Origin: Acorus gramineus | Lineage: Eukaryota; Streptophyta; Magnoliopsida; Acorales; Acoraceae | Assembly: GCA_030737835.1 (NCBI GenBank) | Contig: CM060850.1 | Coordinates: 17,108,690-17,172,689, forward strand | Direction of reading: 5' to 3' | Length of the DNA stretch: 64,000 bases | Shown: one piece after another, positions 2,311 to 54,754 of the stretch | Layout of the letters: each line of letters starts with the position of its first letter | Numbering within the stretch: position 1 is the first letter of the stretch | Notes under the pieces: generated by a model | What the model was told of the DNA's origin: nothing | The model's database searches: none | The model's input: only the letters and a program-made list of their open reading frames with translations | Translations under genes and position numbers: made by a program

Positions 2311-2322
2311 TTCTTCCCCCTT
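2311..2322 (-). other. Polypurine tract of element B
   Basis: On the minus strand AAGGGGGAAGAA lies directly upstream of the 3' LTR start. This is the expected position of the primer for plus-strand DNA synthesis. Confidence 0.8.
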
Positions 2323-3471
2323 AGGAAATTTTGTCCTCAAAATATGCAAAAACATCTACGAGGGGAAAAAGATGCGGATACGCGTCACACCTGGCATCCA
2401 TGAGCTTCCATGTGTCCTTGACACCGGAACGGTGCTGCCATTTCACCTCGACCAACTGGACGGTCTTGGTGCAGAGCCTCCTCACGCGGCGGTCCATGAT
2501 CTCAATCGACTGCTCCACGAATGACTGTCCGGCTCAGAGACAAGCGGCTCGAACGGGATGACGTGAGCAGGATCGTGGACATAACGCCTCGGCCATGGGA
2601 CAAGGACGACGTCGTGGGCATGAACCAGCTGTGGGGGAAAGGCTACATGATAAGCCACCTCCCCAATCCACTCAATGACGAGAAAAGGTCCCATTAAAGA
2701 GCAACTCAGCTTGCCCCGAACGTCGAAACAGAGGGTGCCCCTAAACCAGGACACCTTCTGAAAAATATGGTCGCCAAAACCCAAAGGTAAGCCCCTGACG
2801 ACGATGACTTGGGTAGCCCTCTGTCGGTTCTGGGAGGTGCAGATATACACACGAACCAACCCGGCCACCGTAAGGTCAAACAACTAACTTATGGCCCCTC
2901 CAACTGGCGCTCCACTACCGTCCCAACACAAGGGAGGTATGAAACTGCGCCTGTAGAGTGCCCTTCACAGATCCATCTGGGTGCTCGAATGGCAGTCGCT
3001 TGCAGGCATACCCCAACAATGGGTGGTGCCTCACCCAACTGCCCTCATCATCGAGCACGCAGGCACATAGCATGTCCTCCAAGGTTCGAATCGCCCTCAT
3101 TGACTGGCTGTCCATCGGCGATGAAACGCTATACTTAAATGGAGGCTCGCGCCAAAGGCTGCGCCACAACCTCAAAGTAACCCTCGCGTCTCAACCGAAA
3201 ATAGCGCCGACTGGAGTGCCATGAAGACGAACAATCGCGAAGGTGGAAACCCACGTCAAGACGTCCAGAGACTCAATCAGTCTGATAGGGAGGGAATCGC
3301 GGACTTAGTCAGTCGGTCAATGATCACCCAGACGGCGTCGTGACCCGAACGTGACATTAACGAGTCTGCAACAATCCCTGACAACCCACTCTCACGTCCA
3401 CTGAGGAATCTTGATGGACTGACGCTTTTCACGCGATGATGATTCTCGAACTTTGCCTGAGGGCATGCCAA
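2321..3471 (-). pseudogene. Integrase and chromodomain-like remnant of element B
   Basis: Recognisable integrase pieces appear in the expected order: VIIDRLTKSA (catalytic core region), a stretch with MDSQSMRAIRTLEDML that corresponds to the usual TDGQSERTIQTLED region, then the C-terminal GKLSCSLMGPFLVIEWIGEV and YVHDPAHVIPFEPL motifs. It ends in a chromodomain-like segment (LVEVKWQHRS ... YPHLF) typical of Tekay/Del chromoviruses, where it is thought to steer integration to heterochromatin. The region is a fossil with many breaks. Element C2 keeps a homologous stretch at about 59330-60010. Confidence 0.75.
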
Positions 3472-3962
3472 CCTGGGGAAACAAGGTCACCCACATCATC
3501 TTATCATCACACCACAGCAACTCAACAAAGACTACCCCAAAGTAGTCCTCGGAAACCCAATAAAACTTTTGAGATCCACGAAGGCATCCGGCGCATTCGT
3601 CAACCCCGACGGCAGTACTTAAAACTCGTAGTGCCTGAACGGTCACGAAAGGCCATCTACGGGATGTCCAACTCTCGGATCTCCGGCTTGTGGTACCCTT
3701 GTGCGAAGATCGATCTAACAGCAGACACTCGCTCTCAGAGCTGCTCAAATAGATCATCGATTCGCGGCAAAGGTAATTGATCTTCTACCTCCACAGGGAG
3801 ATCAAAACAACACCATGAACAATCAAGTTCGGATTCTGCTCCTCGGGCATGGCTGGCGCTCATGATAACACTTACACGCTGGGTAAGCCGCTCAACCGCA
3901 CTTAATCCACAAGACATGCAATAAGGGGTCGTCGGACCTCGACAATGCCTATGCAACGTCAT
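3440..3962 (-). pseudogene. Reverse transcriptase N-half remnant of element B
   Basis: The motif PLPRIDDLFEQL is the standard YPLPRIDDLFDQL stretch of Ty3/gypsy reverse transcriptase; further along come pieces equivalent to the GYHQLRIRE and FGLTNAPA regions. It is broken. It lies 3' of the thumb/RNase H piece at 4266-4760, the reverse of the normal domain order. The homologous piece in C2 is at about 58707-59170. Confidence 0.7.
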
Positions 3963-4265
3963 CTATCTGATATGGCGGTCAAGTCCCATCACGAACGCTA
4001 GCATCGCGTCTCCTTATTTGCGACTAATGTGGGGCAAAACGCGACAGTATCTACAACTGTGCTTACATGCCGCCAGAGATAGGCCGCTCATCACAACCAT
4101 TGGAACTCCGGCATCCTGCACTCCATGGGCAGATTCATCACGGGGAGTCCATGCTTTCGTCATCATTTAGCAGCACTCTCCCGGTGTGGCCTCTACCTGG
4201 TAGCCTCCCAAGCCCGCTATCTCTGCCATATGGGCGCACCAACAAGCATAGCATCTGGGAGCACC

Positions 4266-4760
4266 TCATAGGGCTCTGGCCTCAACCGGGCAGCTACAAC
4301 ACATAATGATTATCGAAGCGACTCCAGATGCCACTATGGAACCCTGTCCACTAGCGATCGCCCACTGAGCTGCAATAGGACGCACCTGATTCCGATCGAA
4401 CGCATCACCACACCCAATTGCGATGCGTCGGAGCAAACTGCGAACCCACCCCTCCCAGACGGAAGGTAAGAACTGGCGCTGAGGTGAGCCTCCGATAAAA
4501 CTCCAGAAAGCTCTCCTCGCAAGAAGGGGACCACTCGAACCGGACATCTTTCCAAGTAAAGCGGTTAAGAGGAACAGCTATCTTCGAGAGACCCTCGTCA
4601 AGCTTCCTGCAATAACCCGCCAACTCGGGAAGCTCCGAATCCTTGCGGGGTTCGACGGCCTACGCCAATTCGACATAGCAAGCGTCTTACCCGGGTCCAC
4701 AGATATGCCTTCACCAGAAATCACTCAGCCCAAAAGGCCTTAACCTCTAACCAAACTCGC
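4266..4760 (-). pseudogene. RT C-terminal / RNase H N-terminal remnant, out of order, in element B
   Basis: The stretch AGYCRKLDEGLSKIAVPLNR followed by FEWSPSCEESF and LTSAPVLTF is the connection between reverse transcriptase and RNase H of Ty3/gypsy pol; a DAS motif of RNase H follows. Upstream (about 4700) lies a GISVDPGK piece of the RT thumb. All of this precedes the RT N-half, so pol order is permuted. The 3' part of this piece is also present in C2 at about 58240-58380. Confidence 0.65.
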
Positions 4761-4789
4761 ACTTGATCTCTCATCTATCTGATGCTTCC

Positions 4790-5350
4790 ATGGCATCCCT
4801 TACCTGGGAAAAGAAACCTCGGGAGGGCACCATGAAATCCCGATATAGGATACCCCGACAACCAAACAAGGAACACGAAGTACCCTAGCCCGGGTTCCAA
4901 CGCCGACCTCACAAGGCCCCTTAATCCAGAAAGGAACACTGGAAGAAGACATCATTTAAAAGAACACCACTAACCCCTCCGGATCATCTACCTCTAGATG
5001 ATCACCCAACGATGTCATTCAACATCCTTCTCAAGACCGGACCCAACCTCCGTGGGAATGGTCGAACAGCAATTTGGGTCACGAGTTGACGCGTCTTTGT
5101 CTCATCCACACCCTCACTCCCATCAGGAGACATATTGGGACTTTGGGAGAGACTTAGACTGCTCTCTACCCCTGGTCCACCGGTAGCCTCTCCCCGCTCC
5201 GTAGCTCGCCTGGTCCTCTGACCGGGAACCTGTCTAACGCCGGGGCTGTACTACGCGGATCCAACGAAGGGGAGAGCGATTTCCACGCTCGCGACACCAT
5301 CCATTAATCCATTTCCGGGTTAGCCCCTACCTGACACACTCCCACGATCA
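4790..5350 (-). repeat. LTR-derived segments inside the internal region of B
   Basis: Positions 4800-4930 match the LTR part that reads TTGCGAGG ... GAGACCCGGGTTAGGGTA ... CTTGTTTGGTTGTCGG in LTRs E, F and G, and 5130-5350 match another LTR part (ACCGGTAGCCTCTCC ... GGATCCAACGAAGG). LTR sequence therefore fills the place where the gag-pol middle should be. The junction beside the first segment is also present in C2 near 58075. Confidence 0.7.
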
Positions 5351-5406
5351 GTACCCCTCCGACTGCATCGGCGGTACCTACGGATGAGAGCCTCCTGCCA
5401 GGACGG

Positions 5407-5877
5407 CTACAACCCGGCCTCTTTAACTCGAACAACCACACTCAATACTCGCGCTGCAGCCTCTAGCTCCACCTCCCTCACTAGGGGATCCTGAACTCTC
5501 ACCGCTGGAAACACCACGGGGACTGGGGGTACTTTGGGTACCACAGGCGGATCTGCTACCAAGGGGACCTGTGGAACTGCATCACGGGCCGCCCTCAGCT
5601 CCCGGATCTCCCGCGTCTGCTCTACCAACACTCTGGTCTGGGCCTCCAGTGCCTTGATCCGAGTCTCCACCGAATCCGCTATCCGAGCGAACGCACGTTC
5701 CCGTGCGGGAGGCTCCTGCGCCGATCCTGGCCTCACAGCCGTGGACTCTCCAGTAGCATCCTCGCCTCTAGGTCCGAAAACCTCCAAAGGTCGAGAGGGA
5801 CCATGTCCGCGCCGTCCTCCACGAGGAGACATATCAGCAATCCCAAGAAAACCAGACACTAGGATCAGAATACTCAT
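5407..5877 (-). pseudogene. gag N-terminal remnant of element B
   Basis: An open stretch of about 150 codons begins shortly after the primer site. It has a basic, Gly/Arg/Pro-rich start (PRGGRRGHG) followed by a predicted coiled-coil region (ADSVETRIKALEAQTRVL), which is typical of the N-terminus of Tekay-type gag. No zinc knuckle is seen. It is a truncated fossil. Confidence 0.55.
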
Positions 5878-5933
5878 CTCGAAATCCTAGGACTCATCTC
5901 TACGAAAGAAGACCATTGGCTCTGACAGGACCA

Positions 5934-5946
5934 GGCTCTGATACCA
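5934..5946 (-). other. Primer binding site of element B (tRNA-iMet)
   Basis: The minus strand reads TGGTATCAGAGCC, complementary to the 3' end of initiator methionine tRNA, starting seven bases after the 5' LTR end at 5954. Confidence 0.9.
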
Positions 5947-6483
5947 CCTTTTTTGTCACGCCCCGGGCGTCCCCGAGACGCGGCAAGTGTATATATAATA
6001 TCAGAATCTACACAGGAGGTCAATAATATCATACACAAGCAGCCAGAATGACACACAGACAACAAAAGCAGGGCTGACATGATATATACACCAAATGCGG
6101 ATAACTAAAGACTGAATCTGTAATCAAAACACACTACAGACTCCATACATAATCACATGTCCTGTGAGAGCCAATATACATACAAAGACATCCAAATACA
6201 ACCAAACGCGTGCACAAGCACGGAAAATAATACATACTGGTACAAGGGATGCTGATAGTCTCTGAACTCGCGGGACGTGGCGCTACTCCGCTACTGATGA
6301 AGTCCCTCGGGGAGCTCCTCCTCCAGATCCGACTCAGATGACACTGAAGAAAAATATTGTGCGAGGGGTGAGCCACACGCTCAGTGAACGGCACAACCCA
6401 TGCATCACAGACAATATTGACCACAACCAGATAATCCTTAACATCCACAATACAATTACCAAAGCCACAATAACACAATTCCT

Positions 6484-6830
6484 CAAACTAGTGGGTCGCT
6501 AACGCCAACCCACTACACCCTCACCCTCACCCTCAATGGGTGACCAAGGATATTGGGACTAATCAACACAAAACCAACGGGTCGCTTCCGCCAACCCGCT
6601 ACACCCTCACCCTCAATGGGTGACCAAGGATATTGGGACTTACTACACCAATCCAGCAGGTCGCTATCGCCAACCTACTACACCCTCACCCTCACCCCTC
6701 AACAGGAGTGACATAGGATATTGGGACTGACAATCATCCATAGACAAATCCAGCGGGTCGCTCATCGCCAACCCACTACACCCTCACCCTCACCCTACAA
6801 CGGGTGACATAGGCTCTTGGGACTGACTAG
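6484..6830 (-). repeat. LTR minisatellite with GGGTGA runs, about four units (B)
   Basis: There are about four units of roughly 85-90 bp. Each has a GGGTCGCT..CGCCAACCC part, a run of two to three CCCTCA hexamers, and GGGTGAC..AGGATATTGGGACT. The minus strand carries G-runs spaced by TGA, a G-quadruplex-type pattern. Copy number differs between LTR copies: one in H and I, two in F and G, three in E. Confidence 0.8.
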
Positions 6831-7588
6831 GCTGTTGGTCACCCTTGGTCCACCGATAGTCTCTCCTCACTCCGTAGGTCGTTTGGCCACTCCCACGTTC
6901 AGCACAGTCCTTCACCAAATCAGGAGGCGCCTACTACTGGGAGCCCCTGCACGGGACAACCTGTCTAACGCTGAGGTGGTCTCTACACGGATCCAACGAA
7001 GGGAACAGAACAGCCTATCCATCGCATATGATCCACTCGGATCCGCAGACAACACATCATAACAACACTAATGTTCTGAATTCCTCAGAACCCACCAGGG
7101 CGCATAACTACGATGCGGGGAACATGCATAAGGTTATAACAAGGGTGGAATATCGTTGGGGAAAGAAACTCGGGAGGGCAGCGTGAGTTCCCGTTATAGG
7201 ACACCCCGACAACCAAACAAGGAACACGGTGTACCCTAACCCGGGTCTCACCGCTGTCCTCGCAAGGCCCCTCCCCTATAATATTCACTATAACATGCAA
7301 TTTAACAAATACTAGCATTTAATTAAATAAATAAACTAGTAGGGCACATGCATCGGCCGGGCTTCCTAACATGGAACCAGGGGACATGCTGCATGGCTCA
7401 TACACATATCCTAAGGGTGCAAGTCCCTAACATGCAAAGTCTAGGGTAACATGCATTCTACAATTAAATCATGCTCGCATGATATACATATTTCACATGC
7501 CAATATCTATCCATGGTGCCCGAGGAGAGGTCGGTATACGCTCAAGTGCGTATAACACCTCTCTACTGGGTTGGATTGTCCCACTCAC

Positions 7589-7624
7589 CGGTATCTGGGT
7601 CGTCGCGCGACCGTCCGTCTAGAT
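7589..7624 (-). other. 36-nt conserved segment between acceptor-like and donor-like sites (B)
   Basis: On the minus strand CTTGCAG precedes and GGTGAGTGG follows this 36-nt segment, which includes GGACGGTCGCGCGACGACCC. Exactly 36 nt are also found in F (14745-14780), G (25414-25449) and H (48332-48367), and 37 nt in C2 (55178-55214). The neighbouring intervals vary by hundreds of bases. It looks like a short leader exon; this is inferred from conserved flanking motifs only. Confidence 0.55.
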
Positions 7625-7739
7625 CTGCAAGACAGACATTCAATATGGTGAGAACAATGCATAAAATACCCAAAAATACATCTAAAATACCCAACACTCG
7701 GATAAACGTACATACGGCCCGTACGCACGTGTATCCGAG

Positions 7740-8380
7740 CATCCCGACTCACTCCCGAACCCACCGGGCAGCCGCACGCACGGCCACCCGCCCCGGGCGC
7801 ACAGCCGAGCCTCGGCCCGCGCGCCAAGGCGCACTGCTGAGCCCAGCCCGCACGCCCGGACACCACCGGCGCACTGTCGCACGCCGGCCCGCGCGCCCCG
7901 ACGCACTGCCGCACGCACGCGCACGCACGTGCGCGCCCGCGCGCACCGCGCGTCCAGCCCAGCGCGCCCCCGCGCGCACTGCACGCACGCCCCAGCACGC
8001 GCACGCACTGGCCCCCAGCACCGCGCGCACTGGCCCCCAGCACCGCGCCCAGGCGCATGCCCAGGCGCCCTGCCCGCGCGCGCGCACGCTCCGCGCGCTT
8101 GCGCGCACCCGCGCGCACTCCCGCGCACACCCCCGCTCGCACCAGCACCCGCGCGCACCCGCGCGCACGCACCCGCGCGCGACTGCGCGCCCGACTGCGC
8201 CCGCCAGCGCCCAGCACCCGCACCCAGCGCCCGCGCCCAGTGCCCAGCACCCAGCGCCCAGCACCACCCGCGCGCACGCCCGCGCGCACGCACGCGCGCG
8301 CCCTGCCAGTGGCCCTGCCTGCTGCGCCTGCTACTGCTGCGCCTGCTGCTGCTGCATGTGCTGCTGCCTGCCTGCCAGCC
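7740..8380. repeat. CpG-rich hypervariable block of LTR B
   Basis: The sequence is of the same CGCGCGCAC / CCCAGCACC type as at 1-960, lying between the donor-like site at 8515 and the acceptor-like site at 7625. Long open frames on both strands are a composition effect. Confidence 0.85.
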
Positions 8381-8828
8381 CGAGCTCCCTTCCCACCCAC
8401 CTCCGGCCACCAATGGCCTCCGACCACCACTCCGACGGCCACCCACAGCCACCCAACCCAAAATCCATCCCCCTAGCATACATCTATGCAAGAAAAGAGA
8501 GGAAAAGAGGCTTACCAAGGGGAGGAAGCGAAGTCCGGTTGCTCTCCACGCACCGAAACCTCCCTCAAAAGGCTTCTAACGCCCGGATCTACCTCCACCA
8601 CCGAAATGGCTCAAATCAGGGAAGAAGGGGGGACGGAGGGGCAAATCTCACCGGAATTCGAATTTGAAAGCACCAGGGTGTAGATCGGGACCCGATCTAC
8701 ACTTCCTATGCTTTAGGTTTTAAGCTTTGAGGGCTCTAGGGGGGTCAAAAGTGAGAAAAAGAGAGAGGGGAGAGAGAAAAACTCATTTGGTAGGGATGAT
8801 GAATAGTACCTCGAAAATTAGATCCCAT

Positions 8829-8838
8829 CCTTATATAG
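8829..8838 (-). promoter_or_regulatory. TATA box of the 5' LTR of B
   Basis: The minus strand reads CTATATAAGG about 310 bp upstream of the donor-like site. The same motif is in the 3' LTR at about 2039-2048, and G has CTATATAAAT at 24198-24207. It is the likely start region for element transcription. Confidence 0.6.
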
Positions 8839-9100
8839 TGAGCGACTTAAAAACCCAGATACGCCCCGGAACTGCGAAATTTCAGAAACGTTTTCGGAAT
8901 TCAACGAAATTTTCGTGAGAGGCCTAAAATGGCACCAGGACACCAAATATGCAGTTAGATTTTCAATCAGAGTCCTTTAACTCAGGACGATAGCTAACAG
9001 TCCAAAAATTAGCGGTTCCGATCGAAAACCCTAAAAATTTTAAAAACTGCCAGAACGCTCCAACGGTTACCAGCAGGCTAAAAGTGACACAAGTATAACA

Positions 9101-13028: not shown

Positions 13029-13849
13029 TGTTATATATGTGTCACTTTTAACCTTCTGGTAACCGTTGGGACATTTTGGCAGTTTTTTAGTTTTTTTCGT
13101 TTTTCGATCGGAACCGCTAAAATCTTAGACTGTTAGCTATCGTCCTGAGTTTGAGGACTCCGATTGAAAATCGAACTGCATATTATGTGTCCTGGTGACA
13201 TTCCAAGCCACTCGCGAAATTTTCATCGAATTCCGGTAACGTCTCAGAATTTCACAGTTCCGCGGCGTATCCGGGTTTTGACCGAGCGAGAAGTCATTGG
13301 GAGAGTTGACTTGGTCAAAGTGGGCCCATGACTGTCACGCCCCAGAGCGGCCGTCCCCGGGACGCGGCAAGTGTATATATGATATCAGTAAACAGGAGAT
13401 CAATAATATGCCATAAACAACAGCTAAAATGACAACACAGATAAAAGCAGGGCTGACATGATATATACACCAAATGCAGAAGCTAAAAGACTGAATCTGT
13501 AATCAAAACATACTACAGACTCGATACATAATCATATGTCCTGTGAGAGCCAATATATCCACAATACATCCAAATACAATCCATACTAGGTGCCCAAGCA
13601 CAGAAATATATACATACAACAAAGAGAAGGATGTTGATGGCCTCAAAACTTGAGGGACGTGGCGCTACTCCGCTACTGGTGTAGTCGCTCGGGAAGCTCC
13701 TCCTTCAGGTCCGCCTCGGTAATCACTGAAGAAATAATTATGCGAGGGGTGAGCCACACGCTCAGTGAATAGCACAACCCATGCATACAGTTTATATTAA
13801 CCACATTTAATCAAGTCACTAGCCTCAAAGTGGCATAAACAACACAAAT

Positions 13850-14045
13850 CCGGGGGTTCGTTACATCGCCGAACCACCATACCCTCACCCTCACCCTCAC
13901 CCCTCAATAGGTGACAAAGGATGTTGGGACTTAATAGGTTGATAATCATCCTTACACAATCCAGTGGGTCGCCGCATCGCCGGCCCACCATACCCTCACC
14001 CTCACCCCTCAATAGGTGACATAGGCTCTTGGGACTGACTAGGTT
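13850..14045 (-). repeat. LTR minisatellite with GGGTGA runs, two units (F)
   Basis: Two units of the array described in LTR B, with CCCTCACCCTCACCCTCACC and a shorter run. It lies in the second intron-like interval. Confidence 0.75.
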
Positions 14046-14899
14046 GTTGGTCACCCTTGGTCCACCGATAGTCTCTCCCCACTCCGTAGGTCGTTTGGCC
14101 ACTCCCACATTCAGCACAGTCCTTCTACCAAATCAGGAGGCGCCTACTGATGGGAGCCCCTGCACGGGATGACCTTTCCAACGCCGGGGTAGTCTCTACA
14201 CGGATCCAACGAAGGGAACAGAACAGCCTATCCATCGCATATGATCCACTCGGATCCGCTGACAGCACATCTCTACAACTCTAATGTCTTGAATTCCTCA
14301 GAATTCCACCAGCGCGCATAACCAAGATGCGGGGAATACATAAGATAAAAATGAGGAAAAGAGACCCGCCAACCAAACAAGGAACATGGAGTACCCTAAC
14401 CCGGGTCTCAATGTTAATCTCGCAAGGCCCCCTTATATTCCCCAAAGCATGCTAATAAGATCACAAGCTTGCATTTAATTAAATAAATCAAACTAATAGG
14501 ACGCATGCATAGGTCGGGGCTTTCCTAGCATGATAGCGAGGTGACAGGATGCACGGCTCATGCACATATCCTAAGGGTGCAAGTCCCTAACATACAAGTC
14601 TAGGGTGACATGCATTCTACACTTACATCATGCTTGCATGGATTGCAATAAAACAGTTAATATTAACTATGTGCCCCAGGGGAGGACGGTACACGCCCAA
14701 GTGCATGTAGCGCCTCCCAAACTGGGTTGGGTTGTCCCATTCACCGAAAGTCGGGTCGTCGCGCGACCGTCCGTCAAGATCTGCAAGACAGGTTATCAAC
14801 TTGGTGAATAAAAATCCACAAACACCACAAAATACACAAAAACATACAAATAAACACCCAACACTCGGGCAAACGTGCATACGGCCCGTACACACGCTA

Positions 14900-15540
14900 A
14901 CCCGAGCACCCCGACTCACTCCCGCACCCCCGACAACCACCCGCACGGCCACCCGACCCCCGGATGCGCCGCCGCGCCTCAGCCCGCGCACCCAAGCGCA
15001 CCGTCGGGCCCCTGCCCGCCGCTTGGACACGCCGCCCAGCCTCCCGGGTGCACCGCGCGCCCACTGCGCCCCATCGCAGCAGCCCGCGCGCACCCGCACG
15101 CCCCGCGCTGGCCCGCGCGCACACCACACGCCCCGCGCGCCTAGCGCCTCGCCCCGGGCGCACCCAGCGCGCACCTCTTCTGCCTCGCCACGCTCCGCGC
15201 GCACCCCTGCGCGCACCACCGGCTCGCCCAGCACTCCACCGACTCACGGCGCGCGCGCACAGCGTGCCTGCGCCCTAGGCGCAGCGCTCCGCGCGCACCC
15301 TGCACGATACCCTGCACGCAACGCCTACTCGACCAGCACCCTGCATCGCCCAGCGCCCAGCGCGCCCAGCACGCCCAGCGCCCGCATGCCCAGCACCCGC
15401 ACGCCCAGCACCCGCACGTGCGCCCTGCTGGCCACTAGCTCCACCCGAGCGCACGCACGCGCGTGCCCTGCCAGCTGCTCCGCCTGCTGCGCCAGTGCTG
15501 CTGCCTGTGCTGCCTGCTGCCCGAGACCACCATCCACCTT
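14900..15540. repeat. CpG-rich hypervariable block of LTR F
   Basis: Same composition and same position between donor-like and acceptor-like sites as in LTR B. The open frames found through it are composition effects. Confidence 0.8.
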
Positions 15541-17274
15541 GCCCGAGCACCTCCACCACTAACCACCGGCCACCAACGGCCTCCGACCGCCCCCAACCAC
15601 CTCCGACAGCCTCCCACAGCCACCGACCACCATCCAACCCCAAAACCCCCCTCCTAACATACATCTAAGCCAAAAGAAGAGGAAAGAGAGCTTACCAAGG
15701 GGAGGAAGGGATGTCCGGTTGCTCTCCACGCACCGAAACGCTTCCCCAAAGGTCTCTACCACCAAGACCTACTCCCACCTCCGAAATGGCTCGGATCTGA
15801 GGAGAATAGAGGGCGGATGGAAGGGCTAGGTAGGCCGGAATCCGGATTTGAACGCACCGGGGTGTAGATCGGGACCCGATCTACACTTTCTATGCTTTAG
15901 GTTTTAAGGTTTGAGGAACCTAGGGGGCTCAAATGCTTGAAAAAGAGAGAGGGGAGAGAGAGAAAGCTCAAAGAGGAAGATGATGAATAGTGGGCAAACA
16001 TTTTTAGATCTCACTTATATAAAGTCAACACTTAGATTAGGGTTTAAGCTAGATTAATTAGGTTAAGGGTGCTTAAAGGGGGATTTGACTTGGGTCAACC
16101 TAACCACACAAAAAGACAAAAAGGGTTGACCAAGTCATGGGCCCACTTTGACCAAGTCAACTCTCCCAATGACTTCTCGCTCGGTCAAAACCCGGATACG
16201 CCCTGGAACTGCGAAATTTCAGAAACGTTACCGGAATTCGATGAAATTTTCATGAGTGGCTTAGAATGGCACCAGGACACATAATATGCAGTTAGATTTT
16301 CAATCGGAGTCCTCAAACACAGGACGATAGCTAACAGTCCAAAATTTTAGCGGTTCCGATCGAAAAACGAAAAAACTCAAAAACTGCCAAAATGCTCCAA
16401 TGGTTACCAGCAGGCCAAAAAGTGACACATATATAACACATGACTCGGTCAACCCCTTTTGTTTTTTTGTGTGGTTGGGTTAACCCAAGTCAAAGCTCAC
16501 TTTAGCCTCACTAATACTCTGTTAAACCCTAATCTAATTGGGGATTAACATATAAGTGAGCTAAATATCTTCTCTCCCACACTATTCATCATCTTCCCCA
16601 TTTGATTTTCTCTCTCCCCCTCTCCCTTTTTCTTGGTTTTGACCTAGCTAGAGGGGTTAAAATCAAAAGCACAAAGAAGCCTGTCACCCTGTTCTCATGC
16701 TAGGAAGCCTCGGCCTATGCATGCGTCCTACTAGTTTAATTTATATAATTGATTGCTAGCATGTCTTAGATAATATTATAGGGAGGGGCCTTGCGAGGTC
16801 AACATTGAGACCCGGGCTAGGGTACTCCATGTTCCTTGTTTGGTTGTCGGGATGTCTTATATCGGGACCTCATGCTGCCCTCCCAAGGTTTCTAGTCCCA
16901 ATAATATTATAACTCTTGTTAATAATTAATATTATATCCCTTGTTAATAATTATTATTATATATGTTCCCCGCATCTTGGTTATGCGCCCTGGAGGAATT
17001 CTGAAGAATTCATGACATTAGAGTTGTTGTGATGTGTTGTCTGCGGATCCGAGTGGATCATATGCGATGGATAGGCTGTTCTGTTCCCTTCGTTGGATCC
17101 GTGTAGAGACTACCCCGGCGTTGGAAAGGCTGTCCCGTGCAGGGGCTCCCATCAGTAGGCACCTCCTGATTTGGGACGGACTGTGCTGAATGTGGGGGTG
17201 GCCAAACGGCCTACGGAGTGGGGAGAGACTATCGGTGGACCAAGGGTGACCATCAGCCTAGTCAGTCCCAATAT

Positions 17275-17520
17275 CCTATGTCACCATATTGAGGGGTGAG
17301 GGTGAGGGTGTGGTGGGTCGGCGATGTAGCGACCCACTGGATTGTAAGTCCCAATATCCTTTGTCACCTATTGAGGGGTGAGGGTGAGGGTGTAGTGGGT
17401 TGGCGATAGCGACCCACTGGTTTTGTGTAGTCAGTCCCAATATCCTTTGTCACCTATTGAGGGGTGAGGGTGAGGGTGTAGTGGGTTGGTGGTAGCGACC
17501 CACTGGATTGTATAGTTGTT
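17275..17520 (+). repeat. LTR minisatellite with GGGTGA runs, three units (E)
   Basis: Three units of about 80 bp: GAGGGGTGAGGGTGAGGGTG, then the GGGTTGG..TAGCGACCCACTGG part and CCCAATATCCTTTGTCACC. Confidence 0.8.
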
Positions 17521-18040
17521 GCCATTTTGTGGCTTTTAATAATGAGATTGTGGATTAGTAATATCTGGTGGTTAATATAGCTGTGATGCATGGGTTGTGC
17601 TGTTCACTGAGCGTGTGGCTCACCCCTCGCATAATATTTTTCTCCAATGTCATCTGAGTCGGATCTGGAGGAGGAGCTCCCCGAGGGACTTCATCAGTAG
17701 CGGAGTAGCGCCACGTCCCGCGAGTATCAGAGGCTATCAGCATCCCTTGTGATTGTATGTATTATATTCCGTGCTTGGGCACGCGTTTGTATATTATTTG
17801 GATGTATTTATATATATTGGCTCTCAAAGGACATATGATTATGTATCGAGTCTGTAATATGTTTTTGGATTACAGATTTAGTCTTTTAGCTTCCGCTATT
17901 GGTGTATACATCATGTCAGCCCTGCTTTTATCTGTGTTGTCATTTTAGCTGTTGTGTGAGTATGTTATTGAACTCCTATTTATACTGATATCATATATAC
18001 ACTTGCCGCGTCCCGGGGACGGCCGCCCTGGGGCGTGACA

Positions 18041-23934: not shown

Positions 23935-24689
23935 TGTTATATATGTGTCACTTTCTGGCCTGTTGGTAACCATTGGAGCATTTTAGCAGTTTTTGAAATT
24001 TTTGCATTTTTCGATCGGAACCGCATAATTTTGGACTGTTAACTATCGTCCTGAGTTAGAGGACTCCGATTAAAAATCTAACTGCGTATTATGTGTCCTG
24101 GTACCATTTTAAGCCACTCATGAAAATTTCATCGAATTCCGGCAACGTTTCCGAAATTTCGCAGTTCCGGGGCGTATCTGGGTTTTTAAGTCGCACACTA
24201 TATAAATGTGAGATCTAATTTTTGAGAACACTATTCATCATCCCTACCAACTTTCCCTCTCTCCTCTTTCTCATTTTTCTTCCATTTGAGGCCCTTAGAC
24301 CCCTCAAAACCAAAAACCCAAAACCTAAGAAGTGTAGATCTACACCCCGGTGTCTTCAAATCCCGATTCCGGCGATCCTAGCCTCCCCATCCTCCCTCCT
24401 TTCTCCTCTGTTTTGGGCCGTTTCGAAGGCCGAGATAGATCGAGGCGTAGGAGGACCTTTGAGAAAGGTTTCGGTGCGCGGAGAGCACCCGGTCACCCCT
24501 TCCTCACCCTTGGTAAGCTTTCTTTCCCTCTTTTTCATGCTTAGATGCTTGATAGGAGTGGGGTTTTGGGTTTGGGAGGTGGTCGGCGGCTGTGGGAGGC
24601 CGTCGGGGGTGGTTGGGGGCGGTCGGAGGCCGTCGGAGGCCTTTGGGTGGTGGTGGAGGTACTCGGGCAGTGGGGTTCTGTTCCGTGCA

Positions 24690-25310
24690 GCAGGCAGCAG
24701 CGGCAGCAGCGCAGGTAGCGCGCGGGCTGGACGCACGCGGGCGTGCGCGCTTGCGTGTGCGCTGGCGTGCGCTCGGGGGAGCGGGTGGCCAGCAGAGCGC
24801 GCGTGCAGGGCGTGCTGTGCGCGAGGAGCTGGTCGTGCGGGTCTGTGCGCGAGGAGCTGGTCGTGCGGATCTGTGCGCGAGGAGCTGGTCATGCGGGTCT
24901 GTGCGCGAGGAGCTGGTCGCGCGGGTCTGTGCGCGAGGAGCTGGTCGCGCGGGTCTGGTGCAAGGGCTGGTCGAGCGGCGATGCGCGCGGAGTGTGTGCT
25001 GGGCGCGCTGGACGGGTTGGCGGGTGCTGGGGGTGATGGCCGAGGCGGCTGTGGTGCGCGCGGGGCGCGACGAGGTGGCGGAGGTGCGCGCGGGGTGCGC
25101 GCGGGGGCGTGCGGGGTGCTCGCGGGCCGGTGCGAGGCGTGCGGGGCGCGCGCGGGCTGCTGCGGCTGGGCGCGGTGGACGCGCGGTGCCCCGGGTGGTG
25201 CGGCGGCGTGTTCAGGTGGCGGGCAGGGGGCCCAGCGGGGCGCGGGGAACGTGGGTCGAGGCGCGGCGGTGCCCCCTGGCGGTCGAGTGGCCGTGCGGGT
25301 GGTTGCCGGC
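24690..25310. repeat. CpG-rich hypervariable block of LTR G
   Basis: GC-rich sequence with a local 30-bp tandem (GTGCGCGAGGAGCTGGTCGT, five to six units at about 24815-24960) that is private to this copy. The long open frames across the block are a composition effect. Confidence 0.85.
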
Positions 25311-25413
25311 CGTGCGGGTGTTTGATTTGGGATTTTGGGTATTTATTTGTGTATGTTGTGCATTTTGGGGTATCTGTGGATTTATACTCACCAGTTAATA
25401 CCTTGTCTTGCAG

Positions 25414-25449
25414 ATCTCAATGGACGGTCGCGCGTCGACCCGATTTCCG
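25414..25449 (+). other. 36-nt conserved segment (G)
   Basis: It lies between CTTGCAG and GGTGAGTGG and is the plus-strand counterpart of 7589-7624. Confidence 0.55.
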
Positions 25450-26194
25450 GTGAGTGGGACAACCCAACCCAGTTTGGGAGGCGCTACATGCCTTGGAGCG
25501 TGTACCGTCCTCCCCTGGGGCACATAGTTAGTATTAACTGTTGTTTTGAAATCCATGTAAGCATGATATGTGTGTGTAGAATGCATGCCACCCCTAGACT
25601 TGTATGTTAGGGACTTGCACCCTTAGGATTTGTGCATGAGCCGTGTATCATGTCACCCCGTTATCATGCTAGGAAAGCCTGACCTGAGCATGCGTCCTAT
25701 TGGTTTGATTTATTTATTCAAATGGAAACTGCGATATAGATTAGCATGCCTTGGGAATATAGGGGGCCTTGCGAGGTTAACATTGAGACCCGGGTTAGGG
25801 TACTCCGTGTTCCTTGTTTGGTTGTCGGATGTCCTACATCGGGACCTCAGGTTACCCTCCCAAGGTCTCTTTTCCCCTTATGTATTATTTATTTTCCCCG
25901 CATCCTGGTTATGCGCGCTGGTGGAATTCAGAGGAATTCAAGACATTAGAGTAGTAGAGTTGTGCTGTCAGCGGATCCGAGTGGATCATATGTGATGGAT
26001 AGGCTGTTCTGTTTCCCTCCGTTGGATCTGTGTAGAGACTACCCCGGCGTTAGAAAGGTTGTCCCGTGCAGGGGCTTCCATCAGTAGGCGCCTCCTGATT
26101 TGGTAGAAGGACTGCGCCGAACGTGGAAGTGGCCAAACGACCTACGGAGTGGGGAGAGACTATCGGTGGACTGAGGGTGACCAACAGCCTAGTC

Positions 26195-26385
26195 AGTCCC
26201 AAGAGCCTAGGTCACCTGTTGAGAGGTGAGGGTGAGGGTATGGTGGGCCAGCGATGCGACGACCCACAGGATTGTGTATGGATGATTATCCACCCATTAA
26301 GTCCCAACATCCTAGGTCACTTATTGAGGGTGAGGGTGAGGGTAAGGGTATGGCGGTTCGGCAATGTGACGAACCCCCGGATTTG
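26195..26385 (+). repeat. LTR minisatellite with GGGTGA runs, two units (G)
   Basis: Two units with GAGGTGAGGGTGAGGGTATG and GAGGGTGAGGGTGAGGGTAA. Confidence 0.8.
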
Positions 26386-26893
26386 TGATGTTTATGCCGC
26401 TTTGGGATATTGGCTTGATTTAAATGTGGTTAATATGAACTGTATGCATGGGTTGTGCTATTCACTGAGCGTGTGGCTCACCCCTCGCATATTGTCTTTT
26501 TCAGTGATCTCTGAGGGAGGAGCTTCCCGAGCGACTACACCAGTAGAGGAGTAGCGCCACGTCCCTCGAGTTTGAGGCCATCAGCACCCTTCTCTTGTTG
26601 TATGTATATATTCTGTGCTTGGGCACCTAGTTGGGATTATGTATGGATTTTATTTGTGTATATATGGACATGTTGGCTCTCATAGGACATACGATTATGT
26701 ATCGAGTCTGTAGTATGTTGTTGATTACAGACTCAGTCTTTTTAGCTTCCGCATTTGGTGTATATATTATGTCAGCCCTGCTTTATCTGTGTGGTCATAT
26801 TTGCTGTTGTTTGAGTATGTTATTGAACTCCTGTATACTGATATCTTATATACACTTGCCGCGTCCCGGGGACGGCCGCCCTGGGTCGTGACA

Positions 26894-46450: not shown

Positions 46451-48479
46451 CATACTGACTATCTGGGGAGAGGTACGAAAACGAAGATAACTGGGTCTTA
46501 CACAATATGTTTGCACTAACCTTGCACCCGGATATCGAATCTGAAGGCAATAGCCCACCCAAATCCCCCTACAGCACCTGATACCTCCCTGAAGGGTCGG
46601 CCGGTGTTATGCCTGTGTCATTTAGAGCCATTTCGGTTAAGCCTTGGTCACATCTAGGTAATTCAGGACCTTTTTCTTTTTTGATAAGAGTTGCTAAAAT
46701 TTTTTGGCTTTTAACCACCTGCGGGAGTTGAAGTACTCTGATTGAAAATCTAACTGCATATTATGGGTCCTGGTACCGTTTTGTACTACCCATAAAAATT
46801 TCATCAAATTCCGATAACGTTTTGAAAAATATGCAGTTCCGAATCGCATCCGGGTTTGGCCGTTACTGGGTTTCAGTGGGTGAGATATTTTTGAGTGTGT
46901 GGTGCTTCTCTGCACGCTTCCCAATAAAGCAAAAATGAGTGGTTGAGTGAGGGTGAGCCTAACCCTAACCTCACCACCCCTTATGGTCACCCCTAGACAC
47001 TATTTGGGCATGAAAATGACCTTTTTGCCCTCTCTCTCTCTCTCTCTTGCCCCTCTCTCCCAATTTGTGGATCTCTCTTTCTCTCCCTCTCATGGTCTCT
47101 TTTTGTCACGCCCCAGGGCGGCCGTCCCCGGGATGCGGCAAGGGTATATATGATATCAGCAATCTATACAAGAGGTCAATAATATACTCAAACAATATCA
47201 ACAATGACAACACAGACAACAAAGAGGCTTACATGATATATACACAAATAGCAGAAGCTAAAAGACTGAATCTGTAATTCAAAGACATATTACAGACTCG
47301 ATACATAATCAACTGTCCTGTGAGAGCCAATATATACACGACATCCAAATATAATACAAACGCGTGCTCAAGCACGGAATACAATACATACAAGCAAAAG
47401 GGGGGATGCTGAATGGCCTCTCACACGAAGAACGTGACGCTGCTCCGCTACTGCTGACGTGCCTCAGGGAGCTCCTCCTGCTGATCCAACTCAGATACCA
47501 CTGGAGAAAAAATATATGCGAGGGGTGAGCCACACGCTCAGTGAATAGCACAACTCATGCATCACAATTCATATTAACCTCAAATCATTCAAAGCCTCTA
47601 AGTGGCAACAACTACACAAACCAGTGGGTCGCTCATCGCCAACCCACTACACCCTCACCCTCAAACTGGTGACATGGTCTTTTGGGACTGACTAGGCTGT
47701 TAATCACCCTTGGTCCACCGATAGCCTCTCCTCCACACCGTAGCTCGCTTGGTCTACTCCCACGATTCAGCATAGTCCGAAACCAAATCAGGAGGTGCCT
47801 ACTGATGGGAGCCCTCTGTCAGGACGGCCTGTCTAACGCTGAGAAGTCCCTACACGGATCCAACGAAGGGAAGAGAAACAACCTACCCACACGGATACGA
47901 TCCACTTGGATCCGCCGACACCAATCTCAACTCTACAAATGTCATGAATTCTTCAGAATTCCTCCAGGGCGCATAACTAAGATGCGGGGAAGCATATATT
48001 ATAACCACAAGGTTATAATATTCTCTAAGGCATGCTAACTTTAAAACTCGCATTTGATTTAAATAAATAAAACTAAATGGGACGCATGCGAAGGTCGAGG
48101 CTTCCCTAGCATGAAAACATAGTAATCAGGATGCTTGGGCCTTTACACATATCATAAGGGTGCATATCCCTAACATGCAAGGCCTAGGGTGGCATGGATA
48201 CTACATAATAATCATGCATGCATAGTTTACAATTAATACTATCTAATATGCAATTATGGTGCCCCAGGGGAGGGCAATGCACGCCTACGTGCATTGAACG
48301 CCTCCCAACTGGGTTGGATTGTCCCACTCACCAATACCCCGGTCGTCGCGTGATCGCCCGTCAAGATCTGCAAGACATGGGAAACCAAAATGGTGAGTAA
48401 AATACACAAATATGCAAGAAATACGGTAAAAATACCCAAGACTAGGACAAGCATGCATACGGGCCCGTACGCACGCGAG

Positions 48480-48990
48480 TCCGAGTGCTCCGACTCACTC
48501 CCGCACCGCCAGGCAGCCATGCGCACGGCCACCCGCACGCACACGCACGGGTGCGCACACATGCACGCACGCTCGCGCCCCGGGCGCACTGCCGTGCCCC
48601 AGTCCGCGCACCCAGGCGTGCTGCCACGCCCCTGCCAACACGAGCCCCCAGACACGCTGCCTTGCACGCGCGCACGCTCGCGCCCCTGCCAACACGCACA
48701 CCCGCGCCCCGGGCGCACTGCCGCGCCCCGGGTGCACCCGCGCGTACTGCGCCCCAGCGCAGCACCTCGTGCGCACACCCGCACGCACTGCGCCCCAGCG
48801 CAGTACCCCCGCGCGCACTGCGCCCCCTGTGCAGCACCCGCTCGCACGCCCGTGCGTACAGCCCGCGCGTACACGCGCACGCCTGCCAGCGCGCCCGACT
48901 GCGCGCCTGCGCCTGCCTGCACTTACCTGCGTGCGCAGGCTCGCGCGCACGCGCGCCCGAGCCACTCCCACACCACCAACAGCCGCCAAC
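48480..48990. repeat. CpG-rich hypervariable block of LTR H
   Basis: Same type as in the other LTRs, shorter (about 0.5 kb). The long open frames through it are not genes. Confidence 0.8.
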
Positions 48991-49337
48991 AGCGCCCCCC
49001 CAACCCCCTAACCACCATGCATACCCATACGCAACCCTAAACAAGCATCTACACAAGAAAAAGGAGGGAAGAAAGCTCACCCAAAGGGATGAAGGAAAGG
49101 AGGGAACTTCGGGTGCTCTTCGCGCACCGATTTGCCACCACCAAGACCACCACCACCAAGCCCTCTTCTCAGCCTAAGAGTGGCTGAAAACAGAGGTAAA
49201 AGGGGTCCATAAGGGGAGGAAAAACAAAGGGGAATGAAAATCTAAGACCATAGGAAGATAGATCGGGTCCTCACCTTCCTTTTCTCCTTCTAGGGTTTTC
49301 TTGTTCAACCACTCTAGCTAGATCATATGGGGGATTT

Positions 49338-49339
<2 letters not shown>

Positions 49340-49376
<37 letters not shown>
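49340..49376. repeat. (GA)n microsatellite in LTR H
   Basis: An uninterrupted GA run of about 36 bp, in the region that in the other LTR copies holds a GA-rich leader. Confidence 0.85.
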
Positions 49377-49379
<3 letters not shown>

Positions 49380-50254
49380 AAATGGAGAAGATGATGAATA
49401 GTGCAACTATTCTTGGGCGTGGACTTCTTTAAGGCACACACACACACCACACACACACTCACTTACACTCACTTACACTTAGGGAAAAAATTAGGTTAAG
49501 TTAGGTTTAGGTGTACTTTGACCCTAGTCAACCCAACCACACTAGAAAACAAAACCAATTGACCAAGTCAAGGGTCAACTTTGACCAAGTCAAGTCTCCC
49601 AATGACTTTTCGCTTGGTCAAAACCCGGATACGATTCGGAACTGTGAAATTCTGAAACGTTACCGGAATTCGATGAAATTTTCGTGAGTGGCTTGAAATG
49701 GCACCAGGACACATAATATGCAGTTAGATTTTCAATCGGAGTCCTCAAGCTCAGGATGATAGCTAAAAGTCTAAAATTTTAGCGGTTCCGATCGAAAAAA
49801 AAAAGTTGAAAAACTGCCAGAATGCTCCAATGGTGACCAGAAGGTTAAAAGTGACACATATATAACACTTTTTCCCCTCTTTGTGTGTGGAAAAGAAGGA
49901 GGAAGAAGCAAAAGAAGGAGAAGGTGAAGGAGGAAGAGAAGGTGTGTCTTGTGTATGTGTTGTTGTTGATGTAAATTCTCCTCTATCAAGCTCCCTCTCA
50001 TGCCTTCCCCTCCCTGTTTTTTAGCCAAAGAAGGTTGAGGAGGGCTGTGGAGGTGGTGGTAGTGGTGGTGTTGGTCGAGGTGGTCACGGGTGCATCGAGG
50101 GCCCCCGAATCTCCCCCTTTCATTCCCTCACCCTTGGTGAGCTCTTCCCCTTCTTTTCTTTAGTTTTTCATGGCTTTAGAGGTTGTTGAAAAGTCATGCA
50201 TGCTAGGTAGTTGGTTTAGGGTGAGTGAGGAGTGTGGGGGAGGGGTTAAAGAAG

Positions 50255-50610
50255 TTAAATGGTGGCTGGGCGCGCACGCGGATCTGTCCGCGGGCATGCG
50301 CGCGCAGATGCCCGAGCAGAGAAGCGCAGGCGGGCGCGTGAGCGCGGAGTGGCCGCACAGGTTCGCGCGGGCACTGGTAGCGCGCACGATGCGCGCGGGG
50401 TCGTGCGCACGAGTACGAGCAGGCGCGCGTGGGGCAGCGTGTTTGGGCTCGCCTGGGCATATGGCAGGGCGCCAGTGTGCACGCGCGTGTGCGTGCGCGT
50501 GCACGCGCGTGTAGGGGCACGCGTGGGGCTGCCCAAGGGCTCAAGTAGGTGCTAGCGCACTCGGGCATGCGTGCGTACGCGCGTGCTTGCATGCGTGCGA
50601 GCCCGTATGC
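50255..50610. repeat. CpG-rich hypervariable block of LTR C
   Basis: Short version (about 350 bp) with GCGCGTGTGCGTGCGC-type alternating runs, between donor-like GGTGAGC (from 50137) and the acceptor-like region near 50698. Confidence 0.8.
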
Positions 50611-52294
50611 GTGCATGTCTAAGTCTTTGATATTTCTAGTAAATTTCTAAGTGTTATAATGTGGTTATACTCACCATTCTGATGCTTTTACCTTGCAAAT
50701 CTCGTCGGATGGGATGCGCGAGGTCCCGGGTTGCGGTGAGTGGTTTGATCCAACCCCTCGAGATGCGCTCGACGCGCGTAGTTGTGCGTCGCGCATCGAT
50801 GGGGCACCCTAGCTATACTACTTGTGTAGATAAGTAGTATGGCCATGCTTAAACTATAATAGGTTAGATATCTTGCATGCTAGGCTTATATTGCATGTAT
50901 TGTATCCATGTATGAATGAATGTATTGCATACACCCCTCTAGTATGTGCATGTATTTTCTGTAATGTGTATGGATGTATAGAATAGGGCATGCCTTAGGT
51001 GGTATTGTAATACTACTCCTACCATATTAATTGGAATATCCAGCATGATTAAGTCTGGGTTAATAATGAGCACATGCCTAATATTCCCTTGCGATAAGAC
51101 TCGAGGGCGTGGTGTAGTTGTTGCGCCCATGCTAATGGGGCAAAGCTATGACCAACTTCAAGAGATGATGATCTCTCTCTCGCCCTCTCCCTCTGCACGA
51201 ACTGAGTAAGTAGATGCGATTTCCTACTCGACTCAGGTTCGTTTGGAATATTGGCATGCACTTGTTAGTGCGTGAGATCGCGCTTGACCCTTCCCTTTTA
51301 AGTTGGTGATATCCAACGCATGCTTAAGTTATGCCTTGTGTGCTCATATGATTAATGGCCATGTATGCATGTTTAAGTGGGCCATACCATGTATGCATGT
51401 TGTATGATTTGTTGTTTATGATGTAAATCCATTTTAGGAGCTACCCTTATAGTCAATTATTAGATGATTGTGTATATGGTTCATGCACATAGCTATGATA
51501 TGATTCTCCTGTTATATATATGCACATGTTAAAACTAATTAGGCCTATCTGAAATAGGCATGGGTATGACCCGCTGTCGGGATGTACCTCATTAGTTAGT
51601 GCGCGAGCGATGTAATCGCCCTTGCATCCATGTGATGCACTTGAATGGAATTCAGGAGAATTCATTTGTTGTATCGGTTTTGTTAAACCGGTAGCTTTGG
51701 CATTAAGTTAGGCCTACCCGTGCTAGGCGTGTATATGAACCGCTTGTTAGGTTATGTGCCTTGGGATTATTTCTGCATGAGAGCAAAGGTAACCCCCTCG
51801 CGTCTAAGCGATGCACTCGTATGGGAGTCCAAGAGTATTCGTTATCATCGATATGTAATTATCGAGCGTAGTTGACTTTCCCATAGGGTTCGCTTTGCGA
51901 ACGTGGGGTGCTTCCTCCCGACATCGTCGTGCGTTGAACACCCTAGCGTCGAAGCTGTCCTGTTTGGGTGCCACCACTTGTAGGTGCTACTGATGCGTAT
52001 CGCGGTACGCATCTGGCTGATGTACTGATCGTGGAAGGTTGACAGGTAGAGGCTACGCGGGAGAGGGCTACCAGATGATTTTTGCGAGCGTGGAATCGTT
52101 CTCCCCTTCTTCGGATCCGCGTTGAAGCTACCCGACGTTAAAGCTGTCCTGACAGAGGGCTCCCACCTGTAGGTACTACCGATGCGTTCGACAGATGTAC
52201 TGATCATGGGAGTATACCAGGTAGAGGCTACTCGGGAGAGGGCTACCGGATGACAAAGGGTGTAGAACAAAAGGTTTTCTTCCAACAGTCCTGT

Positions 52295-52560
52295 GTCACC
52301 CTTAGGGGTGAGGGTGAGGATGAAGTGAAGTCACGTCGCCACGTGACCCATTCATTTTTTGTCTGTTCCCATAGTTGTTGGGTCCGGTTACGTGTCGATA
52401 TTCGGAGACATCGTTGGGCAGTTATCTTGATGTAGATGATCCAGTAGTGTTGTGTAGACCAGTAATTCCGCGTCTCTTCGACCAACGGTATGGTCTCTCC
52501 CCAAAAGTCCCAAGAGTCTTCCTCCGGGAGTGAGGGTGAGGTTGGTCGCGCCGCCACGTG
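52295..52560 (+). repeat. LTR minisatellite region with GGGTGAGG runs (C)
   Basis: Two units: GGGGTGAGGGTGAGGATGAA and GGGAGTGAGGGTGAGG, with CCACGTGACC parts between. Confidence 0.65.
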
Positions 52561-53092
52561 ACCTTGTTATCCATTGGGTTTCCACCCATGTATTCCTTGA
52601 AAGGAAATTGCTTTAGTATTGAACTGTTGTATTGGTGATTGGTTTCCAGCCACTCACTGAGCTTGTAGCTCACCCCTCGCATACTGTTTCTTTTCAGGGG
52701 CAGTGTTGGGCGTGGAGCTGGAGCTTCCTTGTGGCGTGGTCTTATGTGCGTGGAGCGTTCTGTCCGGTGGGTGGCGAGTGCGAGGCTGTCAGCAGTCCTA
52801 GAGTCATTATTTATGTATTGTAAATCGTGCATGTGGCACAGGGTGTATTTTATTTGGACTAGACTTGGCTCTCACAGGACATTGATTGTATATTCAAGTC
52901 TGTAATGATATTTTTGGTTTACAGACTTATTGATATTTTATGCTTCTGCCTTTTCAGTTGAGTTATCAGTTATCATTGCTTGCCAGCTTGTGTGTTATTT
53001 ATTGGAGTCATTGTTGACCTCTTGTACTTGATAGCTGATACTATATATATTGCCACGTCTCGGGGACGGCCGCCCTGGGGCGTGACAAAAGT

Positions 53093-53870: not shown

Positions 53871-54754
53871 TGTTATGCCTGTGTCATTTGGAGCCATTTC
53901 GGTTAAGCCTTGGTCACTTCTGGGTCATTCAGGGCCTTTTTAATTTTTCGATCGGAGCCGCTAAAATTTTGGCTTTTAGCCACCTGCGGGAGTTAGAGTA
54001 CTCTGATTGAAAATCTAACTGCATATTATGGGTCCTGGTACCGTTTAGTACTACCCATAAAAATTTCAACGAATTCCGGTAACGTTTTGAAAAATATGTT
54101 GTTCTGAACCGTATCCGGGTTTTTGAGAGTTCCTAGTTTGATTAGTCGAATAGTGTGAGATATTTTGGTGAATGTGGTGACCTTGGGTAACCTTACCCCC
54201 CTTTGCTTAGTGGTGAAGCAACCACTTGGTTATTTTGCTTGTTAGAGGGTGAGAATAGGTTAGGTTCACCCCCACATTTTTCCATTACACTCACCCCCCC
54301 CCCCATGTGAGAAAAGTCTCTCTCTCTCCCTCTCCCACTCCCTACATGGACTCCTCTTGGGCTCTCTTTCTCTCTTTCACACACATCCCCCATGTGTTTG
54401 TGTTAATGCCTCAAAGAGAAGAGAAGGAGAAGGTGAAGGAGGAAGAGCAAGGTTTGTGTAGGTGTTGTTGTTGTTGATCCTCCTCTCTCTAGCTCCCTTT
54501 ACATGTCTTTCCCTCCTCTGTTTTCAGCCAAGAAGGCCTGGTGAGAGGCTGAAGAGGAGGCGTGGTGGTGGTTGAGGTGGCCGTGGGCACGTCGAGAGCC
54601 CCGCATCTCCCCCTTTCCTTTCCCTCTTTTGGTAAGTCCTCTTCCCCTTCTTCTTGATTTTTTTGGGCTGTTGGGATGGTTGGGGAGGTCATGCATGCTA
54701 GGTAGATGGGTTAGAGTGTGTGTGAGGGGTTGGGGAGGGTTAAAAAGGGGTTAA

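Follow-up and report, generated by a model that had tools for sequence, protein, structure and literature searches.

Nested Ty3/gypsy LTRs in the window

The window analysed here, a stretch of 64,000 nucleotides (nt) of Acorus gramineus DNA from contig CM060850.1, looks from its sequence like plant DNA that is full of nested long terminal repeats (LTRs) of Ty3/gypsy retrotransposons. Most copies of these LTRs retain, in the same order, the motifs of a donor (donor 1) and an acceptor (acceptor 2) that would bound a first intron, a short segment of 36 or 37 nt that would form exon 2, and a further donor (donor 2) and acceptor (acceptor 3) that would bound a second intron. The arrangement suggests that these sites are used for splicing, and on balance it appears probable that the leader of this Ty3/gypsy element, most likely a Tekay, is facultatively spliced at them.

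LTR boundaries were assigned from self-comparison, TG...ACA ends and target duplications, and the copies, designated by letters, are listed in Table 1. Target duplications are found at F, G, H and E, which identifies these four as solo LTRs, and copies A and A2 are partial. A2 matches the start of LTR B at 98% identity and stops where LTR A begins; it may be the 3' LTR of the B element. A primer binding site (PBS), TGGTATCAGAGC, which we take to match initiator tRNA-Met (iMet type), adjoins the LTR in three copies (B, C1 and C2). The shared GAG start of the B element lies at 5832 (MSPRGGRR) and aligns with ATGCCTCCTCG in C1 and C2. Furthermore, one of eight pieces scanned against Pfam contains an integrase SH3_Tf2-1 domain (B internal region, within 2883-2482, E 2.5e-10). 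A 70-amino-acid piece at 2533-2321 matched no Pfam family, and its likeness to a chromodomain is one seen by eye only. The internal regions are decayed, and no intact reverse transcriptase was seen in them.

Both the type of PBS and a GAG start resembling MPPR/MSPR are, we presume, marks of Tekay. The LTRs probably belong to a plant Ty3/gypsy chromovirus of the Tekay lineage, a plausible label that is drawn from the iMet-type PBS, the integrase SH3_Tf2-1 domain and the MPPR/MSPR-like GAG start. Searches for relatives returned no matches by DNA patterns in viral_contigs or in genome_contigs, and none by a protein scan of viral_contigs.

Arrangement and retention of the candidate splice sites

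A preliminary description of the window had proposed that in LTRs B, F, G, H and C2 two introns enclose a short exon of constant length. The first intervals were reproduced exactly (891, 915, 901, 713 and 546 nt, respectively), and the short segment was again found to measure 36 nt in B, F, G and H and 37 nt in C2. The second intervals, originally given as about 1 kb in B, F and G, measure 1245, 1019 and 1055 nt, and those of H and C2 measure 831 and 2035 nt. Acceptor 2 had been described as CTTGCAG or CTGCAG; the former is present in all five of these copies, and the latter in J only. The segment also occurs in two copies beyond the original five, J (36 nt) and C1 (37 nt), with an intron 2 of 818 nt in J and introns of 562 and 1962 nt in C1. 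The start of exon 1 in LTR B is an assumption from a shared motif and not a mapped start.

Donor 1 is intact as GT(A/G)AG in all eight copies that hold the site (B, A2, A, F, G, H, C1 and C2), the site being missing from J and E. Donor 2 reads GTGAGT in six of seven copies and GTGAAT in F. The AG of acceptor 2 is kept in six of seven copies, with AA in C1, and that of acceptor 3 in seven of eight, with AA in E; in C2, acceptor 3 is a GAG with a CAG just downstream. The candidate introns begin with GT and end with AG as U2-type introns do, and show signals for donor, branch and acceptor; the lesions occur in single copies (C1, E). Such confinement is the pattern that would be expected of decay after insertion.

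LTR E was considered as a processed, that is spliced, LTR and rejected, for its deletion starts inside exon 1, ends inside intron 2 and ignores the splice sites. Intron 1 of LTR G contains a 28-bp unit that is repeated in tandem about six times.

Candidate splice signals compared with chance

The sites were chosen by eye for their match to the consensus, and their scores are therefore not an independent test; because that choice was made by look, more weight is placed here on features that the preliminary description left unused. Among the 79 GT columns common to B, F, G and H, donor 2 ranks first and donor 1 second, and acceptor 2 is second among the 47 AG columns common to the same copies, the top-scoring of which is the ATTACAG in the LTR tail. 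Acceptor 3 is missing from the list of shared AGs because copy G was misplaced by the alignment at that point. Within individual copies, it ranks 3rd, 2nd, 1st and 1st of 180, 174, 163 and 161 AGs in B, F, G and H, 1st of 215 in C1, 3rd of 79 in J, and only 20th of 224 in C2.

Upstream of both acceptors lies a branch-like motif. YTCAC is found 24-27 nt before acceptor 2 in all seven copies (CTCAC in six, TTCAC in F), and CTCAC is found 25-26 nt before acceptor 3 in six of the seven copies examined, a set that did not include E, and at -32 in C2. Base composition also changes along the LTR: in six copies, T makes up 45-52% of the first 40 nt of intron 1 and 38-48% of its last 60 nt, such that a GC-rich core lies between T-rich ends, while exon 2 is T-poor (11-24% T in seven copies) and intron 2 contains 29-31% T.

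The core of intron 1 is of low complexity as well as GC-rich. Over the whole intron, the observed/expected ratio of CpG is 1.11-1.23 in B, F, G, H, C1 and C2, and in exon 1 of the same six copies it is 0.22-0.76 (the start of exon 1 being set arbitrarily in C1 and C2). So high a ratio in intron 1 is odd for decaying, presumably methylated transposons.

Upstream AUG codons in the putative exons and introns

In LTR B, counted from the assumed start near the TATA box to the GAG AUG, the 434 nt of exons 1-3 hold a single ATG, versus 10 in intron 1 and 32 in intron 2; the LTR tail holds 8. From the PBS to the shared GAG AUG three more are visible, of which one shares the reading frame of GAG. Relative to expectations from dinucleotide shuffles, exon 3 lacks ATGs altogether (none in 534 nt over B, F, G, H and J; 4.3 expected, P 0.0065), and exon 1 of B, F and G has one where 5.2 are expected (P 0.016). 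Removal of introns 1 and 2 deletes most, but not all, of the AUGs upstream of GAG.

Conservation of the sites and the length of exon 2

Copies B, F, G, H and J were realigned from 100 nt upstream of exon 2 to the end of the LTR. Exon 2 lies inside the longest gapless block of this realignment (69 nt), and no indel is found in it among the five copies. The fixed 36 nt weighs less than in the original argument, since such a length is in itself only mildly unusual (about 0.08), 138 of the 1735 36-nt alignment windows being gapless. Comparison among the copies in the window bore out that GT and AG are mostly kept, and did not bear out conservation of the site and segment windows above that of the LTR at large. 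The proposed intron-exon-intron grammar is nevertheless present, and it is strengthened by the high-ranking sites in their expected order, the branch-like motifs at nearly the same distance from both acceptors, the T-rich flanks of intron 1, the scarcity of AUGs in the exons and the lack of indels in exon 2.

A hairpin in the putative intron 2

A hairpin, P3, begins about 25 nt into intron 2 of LTR B and shows compensatory changes between copies. Between B and F, six changes include two double compensations and leave no pair broken (P 0.002 versus random placement), and the same changes separate B and G; no register shift was needed for either comparison. In the upper stem, H and C1 differ by six changes with none broken (P 0.0035). 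No pair is broken between J and C1 (P 0.007), one each between H and C2 and between J and C2 (P 0.02 and 0.04), and one each in the comparisons of H with J and of C1 with C2, which are not significant. For H, J, C1 and C2 a shifted register was assigned by hand, and their counts therefore lean towards structure.

In predicted folding, the upper stem of P3 has a probability of 0.84-1.00 in all 21 copy/context runs, and P3 alone persists in all of them. Short folds of five copies out of seven (B, F, G, H and C1) show a larger structure, a three-way junction in which donor 2 is buried. With the context varied, its closing stem P1 reaches at most 0.07 in 18 of the 21 runs, and 0.63-0.95 in the other three (H twice, C1 once); burial of donor 2 was therefore rejected. 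No general rule of low accessibility was seen for the donors, and an Rfam scan gave no matches at the gathering threshold.

All eight copies that hold the LTR tail have a second hairpin there, which in most of them reads GAGTCTGTA...TACAGAYTC. Its pairing includes wobbles and, in C1, one change on both sides; a single outer or inner pair is broken in J and in C1, and two are broken in C2. The top-scoring shared AG lies in this hairpin.

Outside the LTRs, the window holds a MULE transposase domain, a DUF659 protein that we take to be hAT-like, and an open reading frame with an RRM domain (Table 1).

Table 1. Positions of the LTR copies, candidate exons and introns, and other features of the window.
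Feature	Positions	Strand	Remarks
LTR B	5954..9100	-	3147 nt; 5' LTR, then PBS; ends TGTTATA...GTGACA
B, putative exon 1	8516..8807	-	assumed start downstream of TATATAA, to donor 1
B, putative intron 1	7625..8515	-	891 nt; TTG/GTAAGC ... CTCAC at -25 ... CTTGCAG
B, putative exon 2	7589..7624	-	36 nt
B, putative intron 2	6344..7588	-	1245 nt; G/GTGAGT ... CTCAC at -26 ... TTCTTCAG
B, hairpin P3	7525..7563	-	compensatory changes between copies
B, putative exon 3	6238..6343	-	up to GTATGT
B, speculative third mini-intron	6118..6237	-	120 nt, 44% T; GTATGT ... ATTACAG
B, tail hairpin	6114-6143	-	GAGTCTGTA...TACAGAYTC
PBS of B	5935..5946	-	TGGTATCAGAGC; presumed initiator tRNA-Met type
Internal region of B element	2321..5946	-	decayed; PBS, GAG start, C-terminal SH3 of integrase
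A2, partial LTR	2310-1641	-	within 1-2310
Solo LTR E, split by F	13029..18040	+	AGACT duplication; lacks donor 1 through exon 2; acceptor 3 is AA
Solo LTR F, nested in E	13333..16438	-	CATGAC duplication; introns 15695-14781 and 14744-13726; exon 2 14780-14745
Solo LTR G	23935..26893	+	GTTAG duplication; introns 24513-25413 and 25450-26504; exon 2 25414-25449
G, 28-bp tandem units	24815-24978		inside intron 1
LTR C1, split by H, then PBS	46605..53087	+	exon 2 50699-50735 (37 nt); acceptor 2 mutated to AA
Solo LTR H, nested in C1	47104..49867	-	CTTTT duplication; introns 49080-48368 and 48331-47501; exon 2 48367-48332
LTR C2, then PBS	53871..57626	+	introns 54632-55177 and 55215-57249; exon 2 55178-55214 (37 nt)
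LTR J, 5'-truncated	60021..61406	-	exon 2 61276-61241 (36 nt); intron 2 61240-60423
MULE transposase domain	19514-20332	-	
DUF659 protein	32017-33561	+	
RRM-domain open reading frame	34834-35346	+	

Weighing leader splicing against other explanations

Several results weigh against splicing at these sites. The scores derive from an approximate, untrained plant matrix, and the LTR copies are relatives by common ancestry, such that counts over them are not independent. Individual sites are weak, namely donor 2 of F (35th of 248), donor 1 of H (28th of 232) and of C1 (31st of 314), and acceptor 2 of J (11th of 79). Unlike the U-rich introns of plants, intron 1 is overall 60-72% GC and 19-24% T. 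When H is included, exon 1 has 4 ATGs against 7.8 expected (P 0.079), in no single copy does the exon set show a significant shortage of AUGs (P 0.06-0.37), and AUGs are scarce in the non-exonic tail of H as well (P 0.0095). As regards conservation, 36-67% of gapless alignment windows in B, F, G and H are as conserved as the splice-site windows, as are 17% (donor 1) and 22% (donor 2) once C1 and C2 are added, and the identity of exon 2 (0.77) does not exceed that of intron 2 (0.80). Finally, the tails of LTRs B, F, G, H and J retain 5-9 AUGs after removal of introns 1 and 2, and a third intron or another mode of initiation would therefore be needed.

Speculatively, such a third intron might extend from GTATGT, which is 4th among the 79 shared GTs, to the ATTACAG of the tail, a span of 118-131 nt with 41-44% T in five copies, or else to a YTAG just before GAG, in which case its removal might also take away the PBS. 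C1 and C2 carry TTATGT in place of GTATGT.

The hairpin, which is the best supported functional feature, could also be read without any splicing, the block then being a structured RNA or DNA control element (with, for example, a packaging, dimerisation or translation signal at the hairpin) in which the splice motifs are coincidental or vestigial. That exon 2 adjoins the hairpin and lies in the longest gapless block, that the splice-site windows are not specially conserved and that intron 1 is GC-rich would all suit such an element, and we consider it possible, if rather unlikely. However, it leaves unexplained the two strong acceptors with CTCAC at matching distance, the GTRAG kept at donor 1 hundreds of nucleotides away, and the T-rich stretches on either side of the GC-rich core of intron 1.

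A promoter, an intron-bearing leader and a CpG-rich core together resemble the 5' end of a gene, and the LTR might have captured these parts from a host gene, with the grammar being inherited and either used or vestigial. Yet the layout is common to both groups of LTRs (B/F/G/H/J and C1/C2), and any capture would therefore be old. Most GT/AG sites are still intact; such an origin appears improbable. A third reading, very improbable, is that a small protein is translated from the spliced exons, in a single frame that runs from the end of exon 1 via exon 2 to a TAG in exon 3. This frame and its stop are common to B, F and H, and exons 2 and 3 of J read alike; G is frameshifted. However, in B, F and H this frame contains no AUG in the part of exon 1 that follows the last upstream stop. 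Of 43 events, 15 are synonymous against an expectation of 11.4 (P 0.14), in a test that used five copies for exon 2 (B, F, G, H and J) and four for exon 3 (B, F, H and J, with G and E left out). Pfam gave nothing credible, one of the two peptides yielding only DUF1381 at E 0.2, far under the cut-off. Coding exons were rejected on these three grounds.

A model for facultative splicing of the leader

If the leader is spliced, the transcribed part of the LTR would begin with an exon 1 that extends from the promoter to TTG/GTAAG, followed by a long GC-rich intron 1, an exon 2 of 36-37 nt, intron 2 and exon 3. Splicing, which might also take out a third intron, would yield an mRNA whose cap is brought near the GAG AUG, and RNA that stays unspliced would be the genome that is copied. 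In retroviral logic, the 5' end of the RNA is the template for R-U5 of a new LTR, so that an RNA with a spliced leader would give rise to LTRs without introns. All eight copies that hold donor 1 continue into intron 1 (A2 for only about 85 nt), and the deletion in E lies off the splice sites; therefore, if splicing occurs, the RNA that was copied was unspliced. The hairpin would be lost together with intron 2, and its role may be to mark unspliced RNA or to help it. A stricter division of labour, in which a third intron removes the PBS such that only unspliced RNA is copied and only spliced RNA translates GAG by scanning, with the hairpin labelling the genome for packaging, appears unlikely.

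Comparison with known systems

Plant LTR retrotransposons are described as generally intronless in a 2025 review, which names EVADE (EVD) and Ogre as the exceptions (PMC12786077), and splicing of CRR is also named (PMC3735527). In the Ty1/copia element BARE1, pools of spliced and unspliced RNA divide translation from replication, and two such pools would likewise exist here; however, the 104-nt intron of BARE1 lies within the gag part and not in the LTR, and the superfamily is a different one (PMC3735527). EVD, Ogre and CRR similarly are plant LTR elements with splicing. Yet splicing removes the protease part in EVD and rt in CRR, and the intron of Ogre lies between gag-pro and pol (PMC6317226), whereas the candidate introns described here are inside the LTR. 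The sunflower elements Tyran and Varan share with the present layout two spliced introns in a short isoform, but their spliced isoforms encode truncated GAG; no Tekay member was among the sunflower elements that this study found to be expressed (PMC7730604). Among the matches listed in literature searches for introns in LTRs, which comprise titles and abstract openings and leave most subscription literature outside their scope, no LTR-internal intron is described in a plant element; wording of this kind does occur in two listed papers (PMC4256276, and PMC5542766 on a lentiviral vector).

Human immunodeficiency virus type 1 (HIV-1), foamy viruses and HTLV/BLV (human T-lymphotropic and bovine leukaemia viruses) carry a splice donor in or near the leader. 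As in retroviruses, a genome that is to be packaged would have to escape splicing of its leader; unlike in retroviruses, two whole introns and an internal exon would here lie within the LTR. HIV-1 hides its donor inside a packaging-competent tandem three-way junction, a structure that helps to select unspliced genomes (PMC7599994), whereas burial of the donor in the present LTRs is unsupported in longer context.

If facultative splicing of the leader is true, introns inside the LTR would provide a clean separation of mRNA from genome, and would offer a rationale for why the LTRs of these elements are so long and so rich in AUGs. Furthermore, solo LTRs would then scatter modules consisting of a promoter and a spliced leader through the host genome.

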